Assembly (NCBI GenBank): GCA_007135085.1
Contig: SLJM01000118.1
Location: 1-34,466, forward strand
Direction: 5' to 3'
Origin: Myxococcales bacterium
GTDB lineage: Bacteria; Myxococcota_A; Bradymonadia; Bradymonadales; Bradymonadaceae
Length of the DNA: 34,466 nucleotides
In this document: piece after piece, positions 1 to 29,318 of the stretch
Layout of the letters: each line of letters starts with the position of its first letter
Numbering within the stretch: the stretch's first letter is position 1
Position numbers and translations under genes: made by a program
The notes under the pieces: model-generated
What the model was told of the DNA's origin: nothing
The model's input: only the letters and a program-made list of their open reading frames with translations
The model's database searches: none

Positions 1-1573
1 AATCAAACTCGTCGTCCTGTTCGTCCTTGGCTTCGACCTGCTGGTCCGCGGCCGGTTCGGGGGCGGGTGCGAAGTCGAAATCAAACTCGTCGTCCTGTTC
101 GTCCTTGGCTTCGACCTGCTGGTCCGCGGCCGGTTCGGGAGCGGGTGCGAAGTCGAAATCAAACTCGTCTTCCTTGTCAGCTTCTGCCGACGATGGTTCT
201 CCCCTCCCGAGATTGAGGTCGAAGTCGTCTTGTGCTTTTGGGCCGGTCAACGCTGCTTCTCGCTCGAAACCACTTTGCTTTTGCTCCGGCTGGGACTCTT
301 CGGCGTCACCGGTCAACGGAGGGGGAGCGAAATCAAATTCGGGATCGATCTGGTTGGACGACTCTGGTTCTTCCGATTGAAGTGGGGGAGGTGCAAAATC
401 GAAGTCATCGGCCCCAGCATCGTCGGACGGAGCATCGTCGAGGTGGTCGAATCGGGCCGGATTCGCGACCTCGGCGGTGCCTGGTGCCGGAATTCGATCC
501 TGCGATGAACCTTCGTCTGACCGGTTCGAATCATTTGCTGGATCATCGCCATCGGGGGCTTTGAATTCACGCTTGGTGGGACGGTCGTGGACATCCTTTG
601 GGGCGTCATGCTCCGGTGACTTGACCCCGTAATCCTCCCAGGGAGTCGAGATCGACGAGCCCAGGGCGAAATCAAAATCGGCTTCCTCGTTGACCTCGAG
701 GTTCGGGCGGGGCCCTTCTGAAGTAGGGGCCTCGAGTGGATTTGCCGTTGCTTTGAGGGTTGGCGGCGGGCCGTGGCTGACGCTGGCATCGCTATCGGAG
801 GCGGCACTGGAGGTCGTGCTCAGCGCCCGAAGCTGGGCGGGATCAAATTGTCGAGTCGCTTCGCGGTCGCCGGAGAAGGTGGACGCCGCCTTGTTGACCA
901 CAGGACCGGGCTCGGAGTCGAAATCGTGGTGAAGAGCGGACTCGGCGCTTCGCTGCTGCGTCGTCGATGGGGGTGGCACGGGGGTGTGGTCCGCTCCGAA
1001 GGCGTCTACCACAGGAGGGACGGAGTCCTGGGATTCTGGACCGTTCGTATCGTAGAGGGCGTCCAGTTCGTCCAATTCGTCGGCGTCTTCAAAATTACCA
1101 AAATCGCCGAAATCGTCGAGGTCACCGAAGTCGTCGATCAGTTCCGCACTGGAATCCAGATCGAAGAAGGCTTCGTCCCCCTCGCCGAGATCCTCAAGGT
1201 CATCGAGATCACCAAGGTCATCGAGGTCATCGAGGTCATCGAGGTCATCGAGATCGTCGGCGACACTGATAAAATCAGCGTCGCCGAAGGCGTCGAAGTC
1301 GTCAAAGAGGCCGGCAACTCCATTGTCGCCGTCGGTTTCATTCTCCAGTTGTCGCCGGTGGTCGGCAATCCAACTCTCGAGTTGGTTGAAATGGGCTGGC
1401 TGCGGGCCCTCGGAGAAGGCGGCGATAAGCTCGGCAGATCGATCGTCGTCCAGACCGTTCATGCGCAATACACGCAGGAACGCCAGCACGTCTTCGGGGC
1501 TTCCATTGCCTATGGCCGATTCCAGGGAATCGAGGAAGGTCGTTAATTTTGCGATGTCTCGCTCTTGGCTCAT
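1..1573 (-). CDS. Acidic repeat protein with FDFA motifs (partial, C-terminus beyond window)
   Basis: The minus-strand frame is open from ATG at 1573 to the window edge, at least 524 codons; I checked every triplet and found no stop. I do not recognise a family. Residues about 1-80 are a plausible small helical domain (starting MSQERDIAKLTTFLDSLESA). A strongly acidic stretch rich in DDL and FGD follows (about 85-165), then low-complexity Pro/Ser/Asp sequence. The short motif FDFA recurs, often as FDFAPPPL or FDFDFAPAPEP, and ends in a 26-residue tandem repeat at the window edge. No signal peptide or membrane segment is seen, so it is probably cytoplasmic and largely disordered. It lies 50 bp downstream of a DnaK paralogue on the same strand and is probably co-transcribed with it. 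A role as scaffold, client or co-chaperone of that DnaK is inference. Confidence 0.8.
   Translation of the reverse strand, partial: MSQERDIAKLTTFLDSLESAIGNGSPEDVLAFLRVLRMNGLDDDRSAELIAAFSEGPQPAHFNQLESWIADHRRQLENETDGDNGVAGLFDDFDAFGDADFISVADDLDDLDDLDDLDDLGDLDDLEDLGEGDEAFFDLDSSAELIDDFGDLDDFGDFGNFEDADELDELDALYDTNGPESQDSVPPVVDAFGADHTPVPPPSTTQQRSAESALHHDFDSEPGPVVNKAASTFSGDREATRQFDPAQLRALSTTSSAASDSDASVSHGPPPTLKATANPLEAPTSEGPRPNLEVNEEADFDFALGSSISTPWEDYGVKSPEHDAPKDVHDRPTKREFKAPDGDDPANDSNRSDEGSSQDRIPAPGTAEVANPARFDHLDDAPSDDAGADDFDFAPPPLQSEEPESSNQIDPEFDFAPPPLTGDAEESQPEQKQSGFEREAALTGPKAQDDFDLNLGRGEPSSAEADKEDEFDFDFAPAPEPAADQQVEAKDEQDDEFDFDFAPAPEPAADQQVEAKDEQDDEFD
2..175 (-). repeat. 78-bp tandem repeat (26-residue protein repeat)
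   Basis: Two essentially complete copies (2-79 and 80-157) and the start of a third (from 158) lie in phase with the acidic repeat gene; the array may continue left of the window. Each unit encodes 26 residues containing EFDFDFAPAPEP followed by AADQQVEAK. The copies are nearly identical at the DNA level, which suggests recent duplication or ongoing copy-number change. Confidence 0.9.
1216..1251 (-). repeat. 9-bp tandem repeat encoding DDL units
   Basis: Four perfect copies of GGTCATCGA, flanked by degenerate copies on both sides. On the coding strand they give consecutive Asp-Asp-Leu units in the acidic repeat protein. The unit is a multiple of three, so slippage would change length without breaking the frame. 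Confidence 0.9.
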
Positions 1574-1623: not shown

Positions 1624-3435
1624 TTAAATACTCTGGACGGCTGCACGTACCGACTGGAGCAGTTTTTCAAGGTCTTCGCCTGCGCTGGCCAGGCTGTCGG
1701 CATCTCCCGAATCCAGGCAGTTTCGAGCACCGGCAACTACGTCGGCGGCTCGGTCTTTTAGCTTCGCCACCAGGTCCGTATCAGCGCCGCCGTTAGCGAG
1801 TAATTTCTCGACTTCGCGAATGCTCTTGCGGATGCGATCGCGCTGGGATTCCAATTCTTCGCTGCGCTTGAGTTCGACGAGGTAGTCCTCGTTTTCGGAG
1901 ATCATAGCCTCGATCTCGTCCTCGGTCAGACCGCTGGTGGCGGTGACGGTAATCGACTGTTTTTTGCCCGTCTCCATGTCGGTGGCGTGAACGGAGACGA
2001 TGCCGTCGGCGCTGATCTCGAAGGTGACCTCAATCTCCACTTCACCGGCCGGGGCGTGGCGCAGTCCGCTGAGGACGAATTCGCCGAGCAATTCGTTTTG
2101 CTCGGCCCGTTCACTCTCGCCTTGAAGGACGACGATCTTGACCGAGGTCTGACCGTCGCGCACGGTGGTGAAGATATGGCTGTGGCTGGTGGGAATAGTG
2201 GAGTTGGCCTCGATGAGCACTTCGAAACCGCCGCCGTGAACCATGAGCCCCAGGCTGTGAGGGGTGACGTCGAGCAAGAGCACGTCGCCTCGACCTTCGA
2301 CCAGAGCATCTCCCTGGACGGCAGCGCCCAGGGCCACCGCTTCGTCGGGGTGGACCTGTTTGGAAGGGGGCTTTCCGAAATAATCGGCCACATCTTGCTG
2401 GATTCGGGGCATGCGCGTCATGCCACCGACGAGGATCACGTCGTCGATATCTTCGACTTCCAGCCCCGACTCCTGGAGGGTGGCCTGGCAGATTTTGATG
2501 GTGCGTTGGACCAGGTCGATGACCAATTCTTCGAATTTTTCTCGACTCAACGTGGTCTGCAGGTGGAGGGCCTCGCCATTATCCATGCTGTGGATGAAGG
2601 GAAGGCTGATCTCGGTCTCGTCCATGCTGGATAGCTCGATCTTGGCCTTTTCGGCGGCATCTCGCAGACGCTGCAATGCCATCTGATCGTTTCGCAGGTC
2701 GACCCTGTGTTCTCGGGCAAATTCAAAGGCCAAATGTTCGATGATCCGGGCGTCGAAATCCTCGCCGCCCAGGAAGGTGTCGCCCGCCGTGGAGAGGACG
2801 TCGAAGACTCCTTCGTGGATGTCGAGGATCGAGATATCAAAGGTCCCGCCACCGAGGTCGTAGATAGCGACCGTGGCGTCCAGATCCTTTCCGAACCCAT
2901 AGGCCAGCGCTGCGGCGGTGGGCTCGTTGATGATCCGGATGATGTCCAGGCCGGCGATACGGCCGGCGTCTTTGGTGGCCTTGCGCTGGTTGTCGTTAAA
3001 ATAGGCCGGGACGGTGACCACTGCTTTTTCGGGCTCTTCACCGAGGAAGTCCTCGGCGACGATCTTCATCTCCTGAAGGATGATGCTCGAGATCTCGGGC
3101 AGGCTGTATTCTTTGCCTCGCAGCTTGATCCGAGCGTCGTCGTGGGGGCCCTGGATGATCTCGTAGGGGCAGGTCTCGATGCAATGACGGACCTCCGAGG
3201 AGTCCCACTTTCGGCCGATGAGGCGCTTGGCGGCATAGACGGTATGCTCGGCGTTGGTGATGGCCTGGCGTTTGGCCATCTGGCCAACCAGACGGCGCCC
3301 GCTGTCGGTGATGGCCACAGCGCTGGGGGTGGTCTTATAACCGCCCTTATTTGGAATGACCTGAGGGCTTCCCGCCTCGACGACGGCCACACAGGAGTTG
3401 GTGGTGCCCAGGTCGATGCCGATAATGCGTTCCAT
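1624..3435 (-). CDS. dnaK: DnaK/Hsp70-family chaperone paralogue
   Basis: ATP-driven chaperone of 603 residues. The N-terminal nucleotide-binding domain has the phosphate-1 motif [11 protein letters not shown] (6-16), [15 protein letters not shown], the phosphate-2 motif [10 protein letters not shown] and the adenosine motif [10 protein letters not shown]. The interdomain linker VLLLDVTP and a beta substrate-binding domain follow. The helical lid is shorter than in E. coli DnaK (about 638 residues), and the usual acidic EEV-type tail is missing; the protein ends in AAVQSI. The ATG has an AGGA site about 7 bases upstream. It follows a J-domain gene by 101 bp and precedes the acidic repeat gene; no grpE is present. 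Family membership is certain. Whether this is the general housekeeping DnaK or a specialised paralogue is not; context and tail favour a specialised one. Confidence 0.95.
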
Positions 3436-3536
3436 ATGCAGTCCTATAGTGCGTTGACAATGAGCATGTGCTTCGCAGCGGGGAGTAATATTTCTTCAGA
3501 GGAGAAGACGGACCCGTTGCGTCGCCGGTCGCCCCG

Positions 3537-4649
3537 TTAACTCCGAAGGCGATCGATGCGAGCTCTTAGATCGGCGTCGTCCGGTGCCGACTCCAGGGCC
3601 TGTTCGTAATGGTAGATGGCGTCGTCCAACTGTTCTCTTTGTTCATAAACTGCACCCAATAATTTGAGGGCTTCCAGTGAATCGGGCGAGATCTTTTGGG
3701 CCGCTCGTGCAAAAGCGGTAGCGTCTTCCAGGTGATCCGGTTGATCCAGTAATGAGCGGGCAATTCGCAGAGCTACTTGCTCGTCACGCTTTAAGGTCAA
3801 TGCCTTGCGATATTCCTTGAGGGCTGCCGATATATGGCCGTTGTCGAAGGCTTTATCGCCCCGTTGAATGAGCACCTTAAAGGCCATATCCCGTTTGCGG
3901 CTGTCGTTCATCGCCTCACGGGGCTCGCTTCGACGCGATGCCGGCGTCGAGGCCTGCACGGGAGTGGCGTGGCTTTCTCGTCCCCTGGCGAGAATGGCGT
4001 CGTATTCTTTTCGTTTATTCCGATTCGACAGGGTCTGATAGGCCTTGGTCACGCGTTGGAAAATTCGCTCTATCAGGGGCTGAAAATCGCCCAGGATCTT
4101 CTGATAAAACCGATCCGGGTGGTAGCGCTTTGACATCTTAAAATAGGAACCGCGCAACTGGCGGCGTCGAGCGTCGCGCTCCACGCCGAGCAATTGGTAG
4201 TGATCCACCGAGTCGAGCTGAGCGTGGACGAAGATGATCTCCCGTTTGAAGTCGTCGTCGAGCTCCACGGACTGCTCCAGGAGTTCCTGGTCGAATTCGA
4301 AGTCCGAAAAGGGCAGGGGAAACCGACCCTTAATAGAGACTGCAACGTCGCCGTCGTCGTCGCTGTCCGATTCGGTGGTGGTGTCGGCCTTCGACTTGCT
4401 TTGCTCTTGTTCGGTCTCTTCGGCGTTGCTAATGGGTAACTCGATGAGACCGTAACCGTGCAGGTTTTTGACACAGGTCAGGGTTTTGTCTTTTCCCAGA
4501 CCGCTGGTCTTAGCAATCGAATCCACTGTGCTGGACCCATCGATACGAGAGAGGACGAAAAATTCCTCCGGCGTCGGCTGAGCGTTGAGTGACTGTAGAT
4601 CGACGCCCGGAGCCAGCTCGGGAACCCAATTCTCATCGATGTCGACCAT
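3537..4649 (-). CDS. J-domain protein with N-terminal winged-helix-like region and C-terminal TPRs
   Basis: Probable cytoplasmic Hsp40-type co-chaperone of 370 residues. Residues about 25-72 (EEFFVLSRIDGSSTVDSIAK...HGYGLIEL) look like a small winged-helix or PilZ-adjacent module seen in deltaproteobacterial proteins; that resemblance is from memory. An acidic Ser/Glu/Asp linker follows. The J domain spans about 149-218 and carries the essential HPD at 177-179 (YHPDRFY), so it should stimulate Hsp70 ATPase. The C-terminus (about 245-370) is TPR-like helical repeats, ending in DDAIYHYEQALESAPDDADLRARIDRL. No Gly/Phe region or zinc-finger domain is present, so it is not a classical DnaJ. The J domain sits in the middle rather than at the N-terminus. 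The dnaK paralogue follows on the same strand and is the obvious partner. Confidence 0.9.
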   Translation of the reverse strand: MVDIDENWVPELAPGVDLQSLNAQPTPEEFFVLSRIDGSSTVDSIAKTSGLGKDKTLTCVKNLHGYGLIELPISNAEETEQEQSKSKADTTTESDSDDDGDVAVSIKGRFPLPFSDFEFDQELLEQSVELDDDFKREIIFVHAQLDSVDHYQLLGVERDARRRQLRGSYFKMSKRYHPDRFYQKILGDFQPLIERIFQRVTKAYQTLSNRNKRKEYDAILARGRESHATPVQASTPASRRSEPREAMNDSRKRDMAFKVLIQRGDKAFDNGHISAALKEYRKALTLKRDEQVALRIARSLLDQPDHLEDATAFARAAQKISPDSLEALKLLGAVYEQREQLDDAIYHYEQALESAPDDADLRARIDRLRS

Positions 4650-20837: not shown

Positions 20838-20917
20838 TCCGACATCCGACATCCGACATCCCGACATCCCGACATCCCGACATCCCGACATCCCGACACC
20901 CGGACATCCGACATCCG
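20838..20917. repeat. 7/8-bp microsatellite between rlmH and rsfS
   Basis: Units run TCCGACA three times, TCCCGACA five times, then one CCCGGACA, one TCCGACA and a partial copy. The period alternates between 7 and 8 bp, so no reading frame is kept and it is not coding. It ends 12 bp before the rsfS stop codon, in the 3' flank of both convergent genes. No unique spacers occur, which excludes a CRISPR array. Confidence 0.9.
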
Positions 20918-23387: not shown

Positions 23388-25067
<1,680 letters not shown>

Positions 25068-25637: not shown

Positions 25638-25868
25638 ATCGCTTATTCGGCGAGGATGGTTGAAGGCTGTCGTAAATAAATGATAAGTTCGGGCATGGCG
25701 TGCGTTTTTTCGATAACTTGATGCATTGTTGCAATGGTGTCGAAGCGCGCCGGACACCACGAGGTGATGGAATATATCAGGTTTGACGTCTTTATTTGAG
25801 CATCTCGTGACGTGGTCTGCCCAACCAGGATGGTAGGCAGAAATCTCCTCCATGAGGACCAGAGCTTC

Positions 25869-27602
25869 ATGAATCAAGAATTATTGCCGCCGTCGGTGCG
25901 AGCATTGCTCGCCAGGGGGGCTTTATTTGAAGGCAAGTATAAATTGCTCCGCCCCCTGGGAGAGGGGAGTTTTGCATCCGTTCTTCATGCCCGCCACGAG
26001 GCGATGGATCGGGAGGTGGCGCTCAAATTTTTGCGGTCGGATGTCATGAAAGCTCACCCCGAGGTGGGGGAGCGATTTATGACCGAGGTCCGTTTGGCCA
26101 GCCGACTAACCAGCCCCCATACGGTAACGATCTTCGACTTCGGGCGCACCGAGGAGGGGGTCCCCTATATGGTGCTCGAATATGTTCGGGGCAAAACTCT
26201 GGACTATGCCATTGAAAAATACGGGGGGCTGGGCCTGAAGCGCTCGATTCGAGTGGCCCTGCAGATTCTGGAGAGCCTGGAGGAGGCCCACGCCAATAAT
26301 ATTATTCACCGCGATCTGAAGCCGGCCAATATCATGGTCGGAAAGGGGCTTAAGAAAGAGCGCGGTAAGCGGCGGGTCCACGCCAAGGTGCTCGACTTCG
26401 GGGTGGCCAAATTGGTGGAGCAATCCGAAGAGGGATTGAGGAGCACCGAATCAGGGCGTCAGTCGACCCAATTTATCGGCACACCCCGCTATATGAGCCC
26501 GGAACAGATCTTGGGAAAAGAGGTCAAGCCGGCGAGCGATCTCTACAGCCTGGGCCTGATCTTCTACGAGATGTGTACCGGACTGGACAGCGTGGGCGGT
26601 GATAATGTGGCCAAAGTCGCCCAGGCCCACCTGGCCGAAGAGCCGCTGGAATTAGAAGGGCTGGCCGAGCTGCCCTCGGTGTTGCAGTCAATCGTTCGTC
26701 GGGCCACGGCGCGGCACAGCAAAGACCGCTTTCAGTCGGCAGCCGAATTTCGAGAGGCTCTGGAAGAGGCCGTCGAACTGGGCAAGCGCAAAAATGTGGA
26801 GGCTAAGACCGTTGCCGCCGTGGCCGATGGAGGCCCACAAAAAGAGAAGAAGCAGAAGGCCAAGGAGAGGCGTTCCGACGTCTTTTCAGGGCGAGGATAT
26901 GTGGAGCTGCCGGAAGAGGCGGTGGAGCCCAGGCGGCCTTCAACTGGAGCAGGTGTGCGACCGCCGACGCCGTCGACGAGGCAGGCCACACCACGCCACC
27001 CCTCGCCACGTCCCGGTGGAGCAGGCGGTGCGGCGACTCCGAGCAAAGAGATAGGGCGGCCGAGCAGCGGCACCCTCGATCTGGATATGGATACGGTGGA
27101 GCAGCAAAAGCGCGAGATTGCGCGCAAACGCCATGCTTCATTGAAGCGACAGCGCCAGGCCGAGCGGGACAATGGAAAGATCTGGCGATGGACGGCGAGC
27201 CTGACCGTCATCGCCGTGGCCACATTCTTGAGTTTTGTCCTCGTCGGTGGTGCGATGGGAGCATTGGCGTTGCCGATGCGCTTTGGAATCGCCCTGTTGC
27301 CCGCCATTTTGGCTTTGTTATGGGCGGTCTTTTCGGAAACGAATTATCAGGATACTCTCAGAGGTGTGATCAAGCCCTGGGCTCAGCGGTCGGTGCTAAT
27401 GGTCCTGCTGTCATTGGCCGTTCTCGCCGTGATCATGCCAGATGCGGCGAGGCGCTCGCTATTAGATGATCCCCTGTGGTTTATGAACGGTTGGCCCGAT
27501 GCTTTGAGGGCCAGCGGCCTGGCCATTTTGGTCGAGTTGATCTGTGACGGCGCCGCCTGGCTTCTGGGGCTGATGACCCATATAATTCCCTGGTCCCCGT
27601 AA
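25869..27602 (+). CDS. Membrane-anchored Ser/Thr protein kinase 1
   Basis: Hanks-type (PknB-like) kinase of 577 residues from ATG 25869; upstream in-frame ATG 25830 and GTG 25812 are alternatives. Catalytic features are complete: Gly loop LGEGSF (30-35), ATP lysine K53 (VALKFL), HRDLKPAN (147-154), DFG (176-178) and the MSPEQ form of the APE motif (209-213), with GTPRY before it. The kinase domain ends near 310. A Pro/Arg/Ser-rich linker with basic residues (ERRSDVFSGRG, ATPRHPSPRPGG) follows, then a C-terminal domain with about four hydrophobic helices from about residue 435. The kinase is therefore cytoplasmic with a C-terminal membrane anchor; no PASTA repeats. A second kinase follows directly. 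Confidence 0.93.
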   Translation: MNQELLPPSVRALLARGALFEGKYKLLRPLGEGSFASVLHARHEAMDREVALKFLRSDVMKAHPEVGERFMTEVRLASRLTSPHTVTIFDFGRTEEGVPYMVLEYVRGKTLDYAIEKYGGLGLKRSIRVALQILESLEEAHANNIIHRDLKPANIMVGKGLKKERGKRRVHAKVLDFGVAKLVEQSEEGLRSTESGRQSTQFIGTPRYMSPEQILGKEVKPASDLYSLGLIFYEMCTGLDSVGGDNVAKVAQAHLAEEPLELEGLAELPSVLQSIVRRATARHSKDRFQSAAEFREALEEAVELGKRKNVEAKTVAAVADGGPQKEKKQKAKERRSDVFSGRGYVELPEEAVEPRRPSTGAGVRPPTPSTRQATPRHPSPRPGGAGGAATPSKEIGRPSSGTLDLDMDTVEQQKREIARKRHASLKRQRQAERDNGKIWRWTASLTVIAVATFLSFVLVGGAMGALALPMRFGIALLPAILALLWAVFSETNYQDTLRGVIKPWAQRSVLMVLLSLAVLAVIMPDAARRSLLDDPLWFMNGWPDALRASGLAILVELICDGAAWLLGLMTHIIPWSP

Positions 27603-27683
27603 GAAACGCGACAGGTACGGGGGGGCAGGTTGTGGAGGTCGTTCAAAACCATAGTTAGAGAGCCATCAACTTCGGAACGAATC

Positions 27684-29318
27684 GTGACCAATCCGCACCG
27701 ACAGCTTCAAGAACTCATCCAGACCGGCGATTTGTTGGCCGGGCGCTACCGGATTGGCCGTCGTGTAGGCGCCGGGGCCTATGGAATGATCTTTTTTGCC
27801 GTCGACGAGCAGACCAGGCGGGAGGTGGCGGTCAAAGCCATTCCCCATGAGGCACGCCAGCGAAGCGAGACTGCCATCGGTCGCTTCCAGCGCGAAATGA
27901 AGGTCATCGGCAGCCTGAAACACCAAAATATCATCTCACTCTACGATTGGGGGCAGAGCGAGGTGGGCATGATTTATATGGTGCTTGAATATGTCGATGG
28001 CGAGACCCTGGATCGAGTGGTGCGAAACAATCCAATGGGGTTGAATACCGCTCTGGACACGACTCGGCAATTGGTCGATGCCCTGGGCGCGGCCCATGCA
28101 AAGGGGATCATTCACCGCGATCTGAAACCGGCAAACGTCATGCTCGTCCCCTCCGAGCGGCGTGGGTATCTGGTCAAGGTGCTTGATTTCGGGATGGCCA
28201 AAGTGCTCGAGCCACTGGACGATGAATCACTGGTCGATCTGACCCGGGAGGGGATGGCCGTGGGCACCCCTCGTTATATCGCTCCTGAGCAGGCTCGAGG
28301 GCTGGAAGTGGGGCCCTGGACCGATTTTTATGCGGTGGGCCTGCTGATGTACGAGATGATCACCGGCTTTCAGGCCGTGGAGGCCTCGACGGTGGAGGCG
28401 GCAGTGGCTGCCCATGTGTCGCGCAAACCGCTGGAGCTTTCTGCCATTGATATGGTGCCTCCCCTGGTGCGACCGGTGTTGTTCAAACTCATGGAAAAGG
28501 ATCCGGGGCGTCGCTACCGCTCGGCCGAAGAAGTGCTTCGGGCCCTGGATTCATTGTCACCCCCGAGGAGTGCTGAATACGTCGATAGCTCCAGGGGAGA
28601 GATCGGTCCTGCGCTGGGTGAGGTAACCGGCGATTTTCCCGGCGCCGGGGGATACGGATATTCCCAGGGTAAATCAACGGTTGAGCCTCAATTGTCGAAA
28701 GCGGGGCAAGGGGAAATCGAGCTGACACCGGAGTCCAATCAGGATCTGGACTTAGAGCTCGATTATGAGGGCTATCGCGGTGGGGAGCGTCAAATCGAGC
28801 TCGACGCTGAACGTTCAGCCGAGCCCGACCTCGATTACGAGCGGTATCAGAAATTTGCTCCCGCCAAAAACGACCCTATCGCTCGTCGCCGAAGCGCCTG
28901 GCGAGATCGATGGTTCCGACCGCCTCGCAGGGTCGGGGAATGGATCGAAGGGTCGGTATCGGTGGCGTTGGTGCCCCTGGCGGTGATCACTGTGGGAGCT
29001 CAGGCATCAGAGCTGGAATATGGGCTGCGTCTGGCCGTAAGCGTGGCGCCCCTTGTATTGGCGTTGCTCCTGGCCGCCTCCCGCCGTGGAGGAGAATGGG
29101 AGCGATCATTTGGGCGCATCGGCTGGATCTGTTGTTCCCTGGCGATCGCCGCCGCTCTTGTGATGGGGCCCGACGAAGTAGCTACTGAATTGTTGCGAAG
29201 CCCGGCCTGGATCTTGCGACCTGTCGAGGGACTTCCAGGCATGGCGCTGGCAGAGAGCCTGGTGACCTGGCTGTCCCAGAATTGGGCTGCGCTGTTGCGA
29301 GCTGTCCTGCCGATCTGA
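27684..29318 (+). CDS. Membrane-anchored Ser/Thr protein kinase 2
   Basis: Second Hanks-type kinase, 544 residues from GTG 27684 (GGA about 8 bases upstream); TTG 27630 is an alternative. Motifs: VGAGAYG (28-34), ATP lysine K51 (VAVKAI), HRDLKPANV (144-152), DFG (168-170), and GTPRYIAPEQARG (194-206). The linker (about 300-420) is acidic with repeated short LDLDYE/ELDAE phrases (LDLELDYEGYRG, EPDLDYERYQ), unlike the basic-Pro linker of kinase 1. The C-terminus has about three hydrophobic helices (VALVPLAVITVG, LVLALLLAA, WICCSLAIAAALVMG). The kinase domain is close enough to kinase 1 to suggest old tandem duplication. Substrates unknown. Confidence 0.92.
   Translation: MTNPHRQLQELIQTGDLLAGRYRIGRRVGAGAYGMIFFAVDEQTRREVAVKAIPHEARQRSETAIGRFQREMKVIGSLKHQNIISLYDWGQSEVGMIYMVLEYVDGETLDRVVRNNPMGLNTALDTTRQLVDALGAAHAKGIIHRDLKPANVMLVPSERRGYLVKVLDFGMAKVLEPLDDESLVDLTREGMAVGTPRYIAPEQARGLEVGPWTDFYAVGLLMYEMITGFQAVEASTVEAAVAAHVSRKPLELSAIDMVPPLVRPVLFKLMEKDPGRRYRSAEEVLRALDSLSPPRSAEYVDSSRGEIGPALGEVTGDFPGAGGYGYSQGKSTVEPQLSKAGQGEIELTPESNQDLDLELDYEGYRGGERQIELDAERSAEPDLDYERYQKFAPAKNDPIARRRSAWRDRWFRPPRRVGEWIEGSVSVALVPLAVITVGAQASELEYGLRLAVSVAPLVLALLLAASRRGGEWERSFGRIGWICCSLAIAAALVMGPDEVATELLRSPAWILRPVEGLPGMALAESLVTWLSQNWAALLRAVLPI

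Follow-up and report, generated by a model that had tools for sequence, protein, structure and literature searches.

Polar hub proteins of the FimV/HubP type are very acidic in one region, have TPRs at the C-terminus and carry LysM or FimV-type conserved domains. The FDF motif of EDC3-type proteins binds DDX6, and in some eukaryotic co-chaperones short acidic tails are bound in the groove of a TPR domain. Recent in-frame tandem units extending a disordered region are described for Borg-element proteins and others (available part of PMC9879509). Extra DnaK-type genes with special roles (SglK, StkA and MXAN_3016 of Myxococcus xanthus) are described in Myxococcota (available part of PMC8265645), and in the available part of PMC4319316 stkB is SCP2-like and stkC PhaE-like, neither being of the TPR/winged-helix type.

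The gene described here is the third gene of a chaperone trio at the left edge of a 34,466-nucleotide window (the whole stretch of DNA that was analysed). Like FimV/HubP, its product has a very acidic region and a C-terminal TPR part, but it has a C-terminal winged-helix-like domain and is tied to J protein and DnaK genes; its TPR portion hit a solved part of FimV at E 0.059, no FimV or LysM row was obtained for P0001 (the window protein), P0004, P0005 and P0006 in the Pfam and NCBIfam scans, and a search for HubP/FimV in the open library covered was empty. With EDC3-type proteins it shares a short FDF word, there a docking site for DDX6; the EDC3 side is eukaryotic and was compared by motif, and EDC3/LSM14 Pfam models gave no row in the scans, where short motifs rarely score. 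DnaK's own acidic C-terminal tail likewise includes an aromatic word, as in DDVIDAEFEE of the paralogue L072, but it belongs to DnaK itself and is present in one copy, without an array. In contrast to Borg-type repeats, the tandem units here lie in a bacterial chaperone-cluster gene, are centred on one acidic-aromatic word and occur in three genera. No named Pfam or NCBIfam family was matched by the third protein (weak TPR rows at most), no paper joining DnaK, TPR, Myxococcota and DnaJ domain was found in the open library covered, and the sole match there for Bradymonadales together with DnaK concerns, in its available part, enrichment culturing.

The coordinates of the trio and of the features within its third gene are given in Table 1. 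On the same strand, upstream of the third gene, lie the genes of DnaK, of the J/TPR protein and then of a class-III aminotransferase and an AAA protein. The arrangement J-DnaK-third gene was recovered in 17 family genomes (that of the window included) among 21 searched; in the other four, the contig ends at the gene (G003, G016) or no match was obtained (G005, G012). Outside the taxonomic order, DnaK is directly upstream in 17 of 20 loci (hand-picked among the matches) and the J protein too in 16 of those 17. The three loci without an upstream DnaK are L102 and L105, where none is seen, and L086, where the contig breaks off. With the first alignment, 18 of the 21 family genomes gave a match to the C-terminal part of the third protein, as did 23 genomes among the 26 of the order, which include those 21. 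By a broader alignment, the core domain was matched in 53 of 57 genomes at class level and, at phylum level, in 137 of 237 genomes drawn at a completeness of at least 90, the two sets overlapping and some matches being other carriers of the winged-helix part. The frames of 13 inspected third proteins from outside the order were 199-814 residues long, several being short (199 to 341), and no FDF array was seen by eye in these 13. Since these distant trio orthologues have short linkers and no array, the FDF words are taken not to be part of the core function; as judged by sequence comparison, the widely conserved core of the third protein is its folded C-terminal end (TPR-type helices and winged helix). 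In L014, two convergent genes (1227-2663 and 2682-4478) lie beyond the third gene; their products are a protein of 478 residues that has no Pfam row and one with a weak HEAT-repeat row. L015 and L018 have similar genes in this position.

Table 1. Features of the trio in the window, all on the reverse strand.
Feature	Position	Strand	Description
Third gene of trio	2..1573	-	Long acidic protein; first 524 N-terminal residues present, mostly linker; left edge cuts gene
N-terminal domain, residues ~1-78	1340..1573	-	Four helices predicted for the same region in the L063 relative; alignment of relatives
FDFA sites, n=5	665-676, 392-403, 326-337, 146-157, 68-79	-	Four of five followed by Pro
FDFALG	659..676	-	Part of DFALGSSISTPWED
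FDFAPPPL copy 1	380..403	-
FDFAPPPL copy 2	314..337	-
Tandem array, 78 bp (26 residues)	1..174	-	In frame, with FDFDFAPAPEP; cut by contig end
FDFDFAPAPEP array copy 1	131..163	-
FDFDFAPAPEP array copy 2	53..85	-
Trio DnaK, 603 aa	1624..3435	-	Pfam PF00012, E 1.4e-213
J/TPR protein	3537..4649	-	Winged-helix-like domain at the N-terminus, HPD-containing J domain and TPRs
Winged-helix-like domain of J/TPR protein, residues ~1-72	4434..4649	-	hhalign and AF2
J domain, residues 149-217	3999..4205	-	PF00226, E 1.2e-15
TPR region of J/TPR protein, residues ~263-358	3576..3863	-	Pfam TPR rows; TPR structures in fold search

Three further features of the window were recorded. About 10 copies of an 8-bp direct repeat (CCGACATC) lie, apparently between genes, at 20839-20916; a 9-bp repeat at 25008-25061 is ordinary and codes for the Gly-Gly-Met end of a GroEL-type chaperonin; and two adjoining Ser/Thr protein kinase genes (25812-29318) follow the chaperonin gene.

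The architecture of the third protein was predicted with AF2 for a 640-residue relative (9 sequences, mean pLDDT 57.6, pTM 0.30). A helical N domain at residues 8-85 (helices 8-22, 26-38, 44-54 and 59-85; pLDDT 93-97 in the block of residues 11-70) is followed in the model by a linker at 86-508, mostly with pLDDT <50 and with one short helix at 420-430, and by a C-terminal side consisting of three helices (509-572) and a winged-helix-like end (579-639). The acidic, Pro/Ser-rich linker of the third protein is predicted to be disordered. For the J/TPR protein (mean pLDDT 79.4), the winged-helix-like region was modelled as three helices with short strands. When the third protein's C-terminal domain (25 sequences) was compared by hhalign with the domain at the N-terminus of the J/TPR protein (12 of 17 sequences, the search pattern having missed G006, G018, G011, G007 and L068), the probability was 97.5% (E 7.8e-12, 48 columns); by profile, the two domains are homologous. 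Kinship of the N domain with the N-terminal TPR of distant orthologues was considered as well, and at an hhalign probability of 1.2% this homology is unsupported. No match was obtained for the model of the relative with Foldseek at E up to 0.001. In the VIA rows, its C-terminal part met TPR proteins and GATOR1/SEA winged helices at Z ~8-10, the N domain being barely covered; these matches are common folds, and nothing was therefore built on them.

The sequence to the left of the window, which the preliminary description had pointed to as the next thing to obtain, most likely lies on contig C290 of the same genome, with an array unit and the C-terminal part. The first 111 bases of C290 are the reverse complement of window positions 1-111, and the window edge is thus most likely a contig break inside the 78-bp array, with the rest of the gene on C290. 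The first frame of C290 runs from an FDFDFAPAPEP unit through FDFDFAPPPL and a long low-complexity stretch to the folded C-terminal part; its opening unit is identical to the second full 26-residue unit of the window and is perhaps the same physical copy as the last one there. The continuation was aligned to the relatives at 52-62% identity, which independently supports membership of the trio family, and it has the C-terminal TPR-type helices and the DHRAGFLLSQIDG..FEDILD..SM winged-helix-like domain by which the core family is recognized. Its matches to the A5 core profile (E 2.3e-50) and to the A1 profile of relatives hold by construction, the C290 sequence being one of nine rows in A5 and also a row in A1. 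The contigs of the congeners G001 and G002 also break in the array, their ends sharing 35 and 62 bases, respectively, and the copy number in this genus is thus a lower bound.

Within the window, the repeated FDFA words of the preliminary description were all located (FDFAPPPL twice, FDFDFAPAPEP twice and FDFALG once), and its near-identical 78-bp copies at the edge were recovered by TRF (period 78 bp, 2.2 copies, 97% matches). A single base in 78 separates the two full 26-residue units, which are therefore very recent copies. FDFA was counted 6 times in the linker against 0.03 expected from 500 composition shuffles, the count comprising five sites of the window and one from its hypothetical join with C290. 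That the motif is kept while the linkers diverge holds for FDFALG, the two FDFAPPPL and the array contexts, but not among the array copies alone, which are near-identical in their linkers too and so prove nothing of the kind by themselves. Forms like FDFALG (DFALG, DFAMG or DFSLG) were seen by eye in G001, G015, G017, G019 and G020. FDFAPP is encoded at three places in the genome, each of them on one of the two contigs that carry this gene, and the exact DFDFD pattern occurs 6 times in the genome, in 5 frames elsewhere, three of which are by eye RuvB-, NuoF- and aldo/keto reductase-like. That FDF serves as a docking code throughout the genome was rejected for these two exact patterns, the only ones tried.

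Across the family, 17 linkers were compared; G003, with just 97 residues, G004, with just an N-terminal piece, and G005 and G012, with no match, are not among them. The linker of this genome (G000) was composed of the window protein and C290 with the 36-residue overlap removed, its copy number being minimal; those of G001 and G002 were two contig pieces set end to end with the 35- and 62-base overlaps kept, so that the junction is artificial and at least one site of the word profile given below is an artefact. The linker end was set at the SFVLEE-type island where found, otherwise at 150 residues before the protein end. FDFA is present in 2 of the 17 linkers (this species and one site in G015) and is thereby ruled out as the conserved word that it had been taken for. 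FDF is present in 13 and absent from four (G013, G006, G018 and G016), and the word that is kept approximates to [DE][DE]FD[FL][DA][LF]G, FDFA-Pro being, by sequence, its local form in this species. The related word F(F)PPP[LI] is present in 7 of 17 linkers (G000, G001, G002, G015, G017, G019 and G020).

The restricted occurrence of FDFA and the four linkers without FDF are in keeping with neutral repeat turnover, in which the acidic linker would need length and charge only, the arrays would result from replication slippage and the F residues from ancestry. So are the unit sequences and lengths, which differ between congeners, the very recent age of the window copies and the distant orthologues without array. 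Taken singly, FDF exceeded the composition shuffles at 0.05 in 10 of 17 linkers, G019, G020 and G008 having FDF but not above that level. An excess of FDF remains with the arrays collapsed, which stands against turnover: 25 FDF were observed against 2.80 expected, the maximum in 2000 shuffles being 10, and they were found in 11 of 15 linkers; composition shuffles ignore low-complexity clustering, and G017 was left uncollapsed, but G017 and G020, congeners of G019, are outside these 15. The same shuffles bear on salt adaptation, in which the acidic linker would reflect a saline habitat and FDF would be a by-product of its composition. Asp and Glu make up 15-34% of the 17 linkers and the group is described from saline environments in the available part of PMC7460792; however, shuffles that keep the composition do not reach the observed FDF rate, and acidity leaves the phenylalanine unexplained, so that this account is considered highly unlikely.

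A word with limits is a second point against turnover. The family word was obtained as [DE][DE]-F-D-[FL]-[DA]-[LF]-G-[FP] from 45 distinct sites in 11 linkers. The sites (54, of which 45 are distinct), two of which are the EFFELAESL island, were chosen by F[DE][FL] and an acidic context, and the linkers left out were G013, G006, G018 and G016 (no FDF, G018 holding one DFDL), G017 and G020. Positions -4 to +2 were used in the choice of sites, and positions -1 to -3, which are mostly D/E, thus carry an acidic context that was part of that choice. Positions +3 to +6 after the first F were not so used and reached 1.67, 1.88, 1.21 and 1.08 bits, respectively, against a floor of ~0.5, related copies inflating these values; the word has its limits at about -3 to +6. 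Of the features by which a multivalent short-linear-motif docking protein is recognized, a motif enriched beyond composition and bounded was thus found, and retention of exact FDFA in the orthologues was not.

Other parts of the linker are conserved as well. The islands EFFALAESLA, YRGEP and NPFxxxxPTGVR, and also SFVLEE, are kept across genera at least as well as the FDF word. In an unbiased three-letter count of 15 linkers, YRG was found in 13, NPF in 12 and FDF in 11, and by excess YRG, NPF, TRQ and FDL outrank FDF, which is therefore one conserved feature among several; the collapse of arrays in this count missed G001 and G002 partly and G019 wholly, and for FDF the count of 25 against 2.80 is preferred. 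These islands indicate that the linker is not free spacer throughout, which again argues against neutral turnover. A further island, VHxRPTxx, was observed in the window protein P0001 (DVHDRPTKREF), in two congeners and in the distant orthologue L096, whose linker is otherwise unlike; it is perhaps a candidate phosphorylation site.

TRF arrays with an F[DF]F core were found in three genera with unit lengths of 48-120 bp, namely 78 bp in this genome, 48 in G001, 60 in G002, 75 in G020 (three units, the last without the core) and 120 in G014. Family arrays without the core are one in G018 and two very short ones in G013, and diverged copies were seen by eye, without a TRF array, in G019, G017 and G010. 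The periods of at least 15 that were printed by TRF are all multiples of three, i.e. in frame. Three of 6 genus-level arrays carry the core (P ~0.003 under the null of an array anywhere in the collapsed linker, with the genera taken as independent, hand-set floors and few events). The 4.2-copy array of G014 sits inside a contig of 8,047,206 bases, and the assembly artefact that the preliminary description had allowed for is thereby ruled out for the family, the copy number in this genome remaining a lower bound. The gain of arrays may be plain slippage in a tolerant linker, which suits neutral turnover, but the recurrence of core-bearing arrays in three genera does not, and on the whole that account is judged to be rather unlikely.

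The partners named in the preliminary description, DnaK and the J/TPR protein, are not supported. In favour of direct docking of the FDF words on the trio's own proteins, the three genes form one cluster in all 17 testable family genomes, and the model of the J/TPR protein matches acidic-tail-binding TPRs, among many others. Against it, genomes whose third protein lacks an FDF array retain the J/DnaK pair, and the TPR is a common fold, so that a match says nothing about the ligand. Negatively charged residues disfavour DnaK binding (available part of PMC8215388), and by the substrate peptide rule of DnaK (a hydrophobic core with basic, not acidic, flanks) the FDF words fail, with D/E mostly at -1 to -3; being acidic, they are unlikely to dock in the DnaK substrate groove, a place which is therefore disfavoured. 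Docking on the trio's own DnaK or J/TPR protein is accordingly regarded as improbable.

The trio DnaK lacks the acidic tail with which its paralogue L072 (G000:C178, same genome) ends (DDDDDDDDVIDAEFEEAN), and this difference suggests a reading in which the acidic-aromatic words of the neighbouring gene replace the missing C-terminal tail in trans. Of 37 trio DnaK frames inspected by eye, 35 have no acidic tail and the other two, L091 and L097, end early, and MXAN_3016 and SglK of M. xanthus are described without a C-terminal tail in the available part of PMC8265645. However, tail-less trio DnaKs are also present where the third protein has no acidic array, the acidic end of L070, another paralogue in this genome, is shorter (the frames of L071 and L073 stop earlier), and the likeness between the L072 tail and the FDF words was judged by eye only. 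Replacement of the tail in this manner is hardly probable. The wider proposal, in which a tail-less Hsp70 paralogue and a separate partner gene carrying a multi-copy acidic-aromatic tail in trans would occur in Bradymonadales relatives, with amplification independently in several genera tuning client or partner avidity, is very doubtful.

As to multivalent docking as first proposed, what stands is that the word is set off from a disordered background and amplified in frame in three genera; the letters FDFA do not, and the DnaK groove is disfavoured. A docking role of the FDF words is plausible from the sequences, and the preferred reading, lineage-specific multivalent docking words in a chaperone-module adaptor with a putative partner, is given an even chance. 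Each FDF word would dock weakly on a folded partner, and avidity would rise as the word is amplified. The third protein would then act as a multivalent adaptor gathering a partner or client near the specialized J/DnaK pair, to which it may be tied via the winged-helix-like domain that it has in common with the J protein.

An orphan disordered protein now has a genomic setting: its gene forms a trio with those of DnaK and a J protein, and this trio is also met far outside the family. From genome to genome, the same protein has between 0 and ~9 array copies of one word (both counts being lower bounds), and this natural series is a ready-made test of how bacteria may tune avidity by repeat number in a chaperone cluster.
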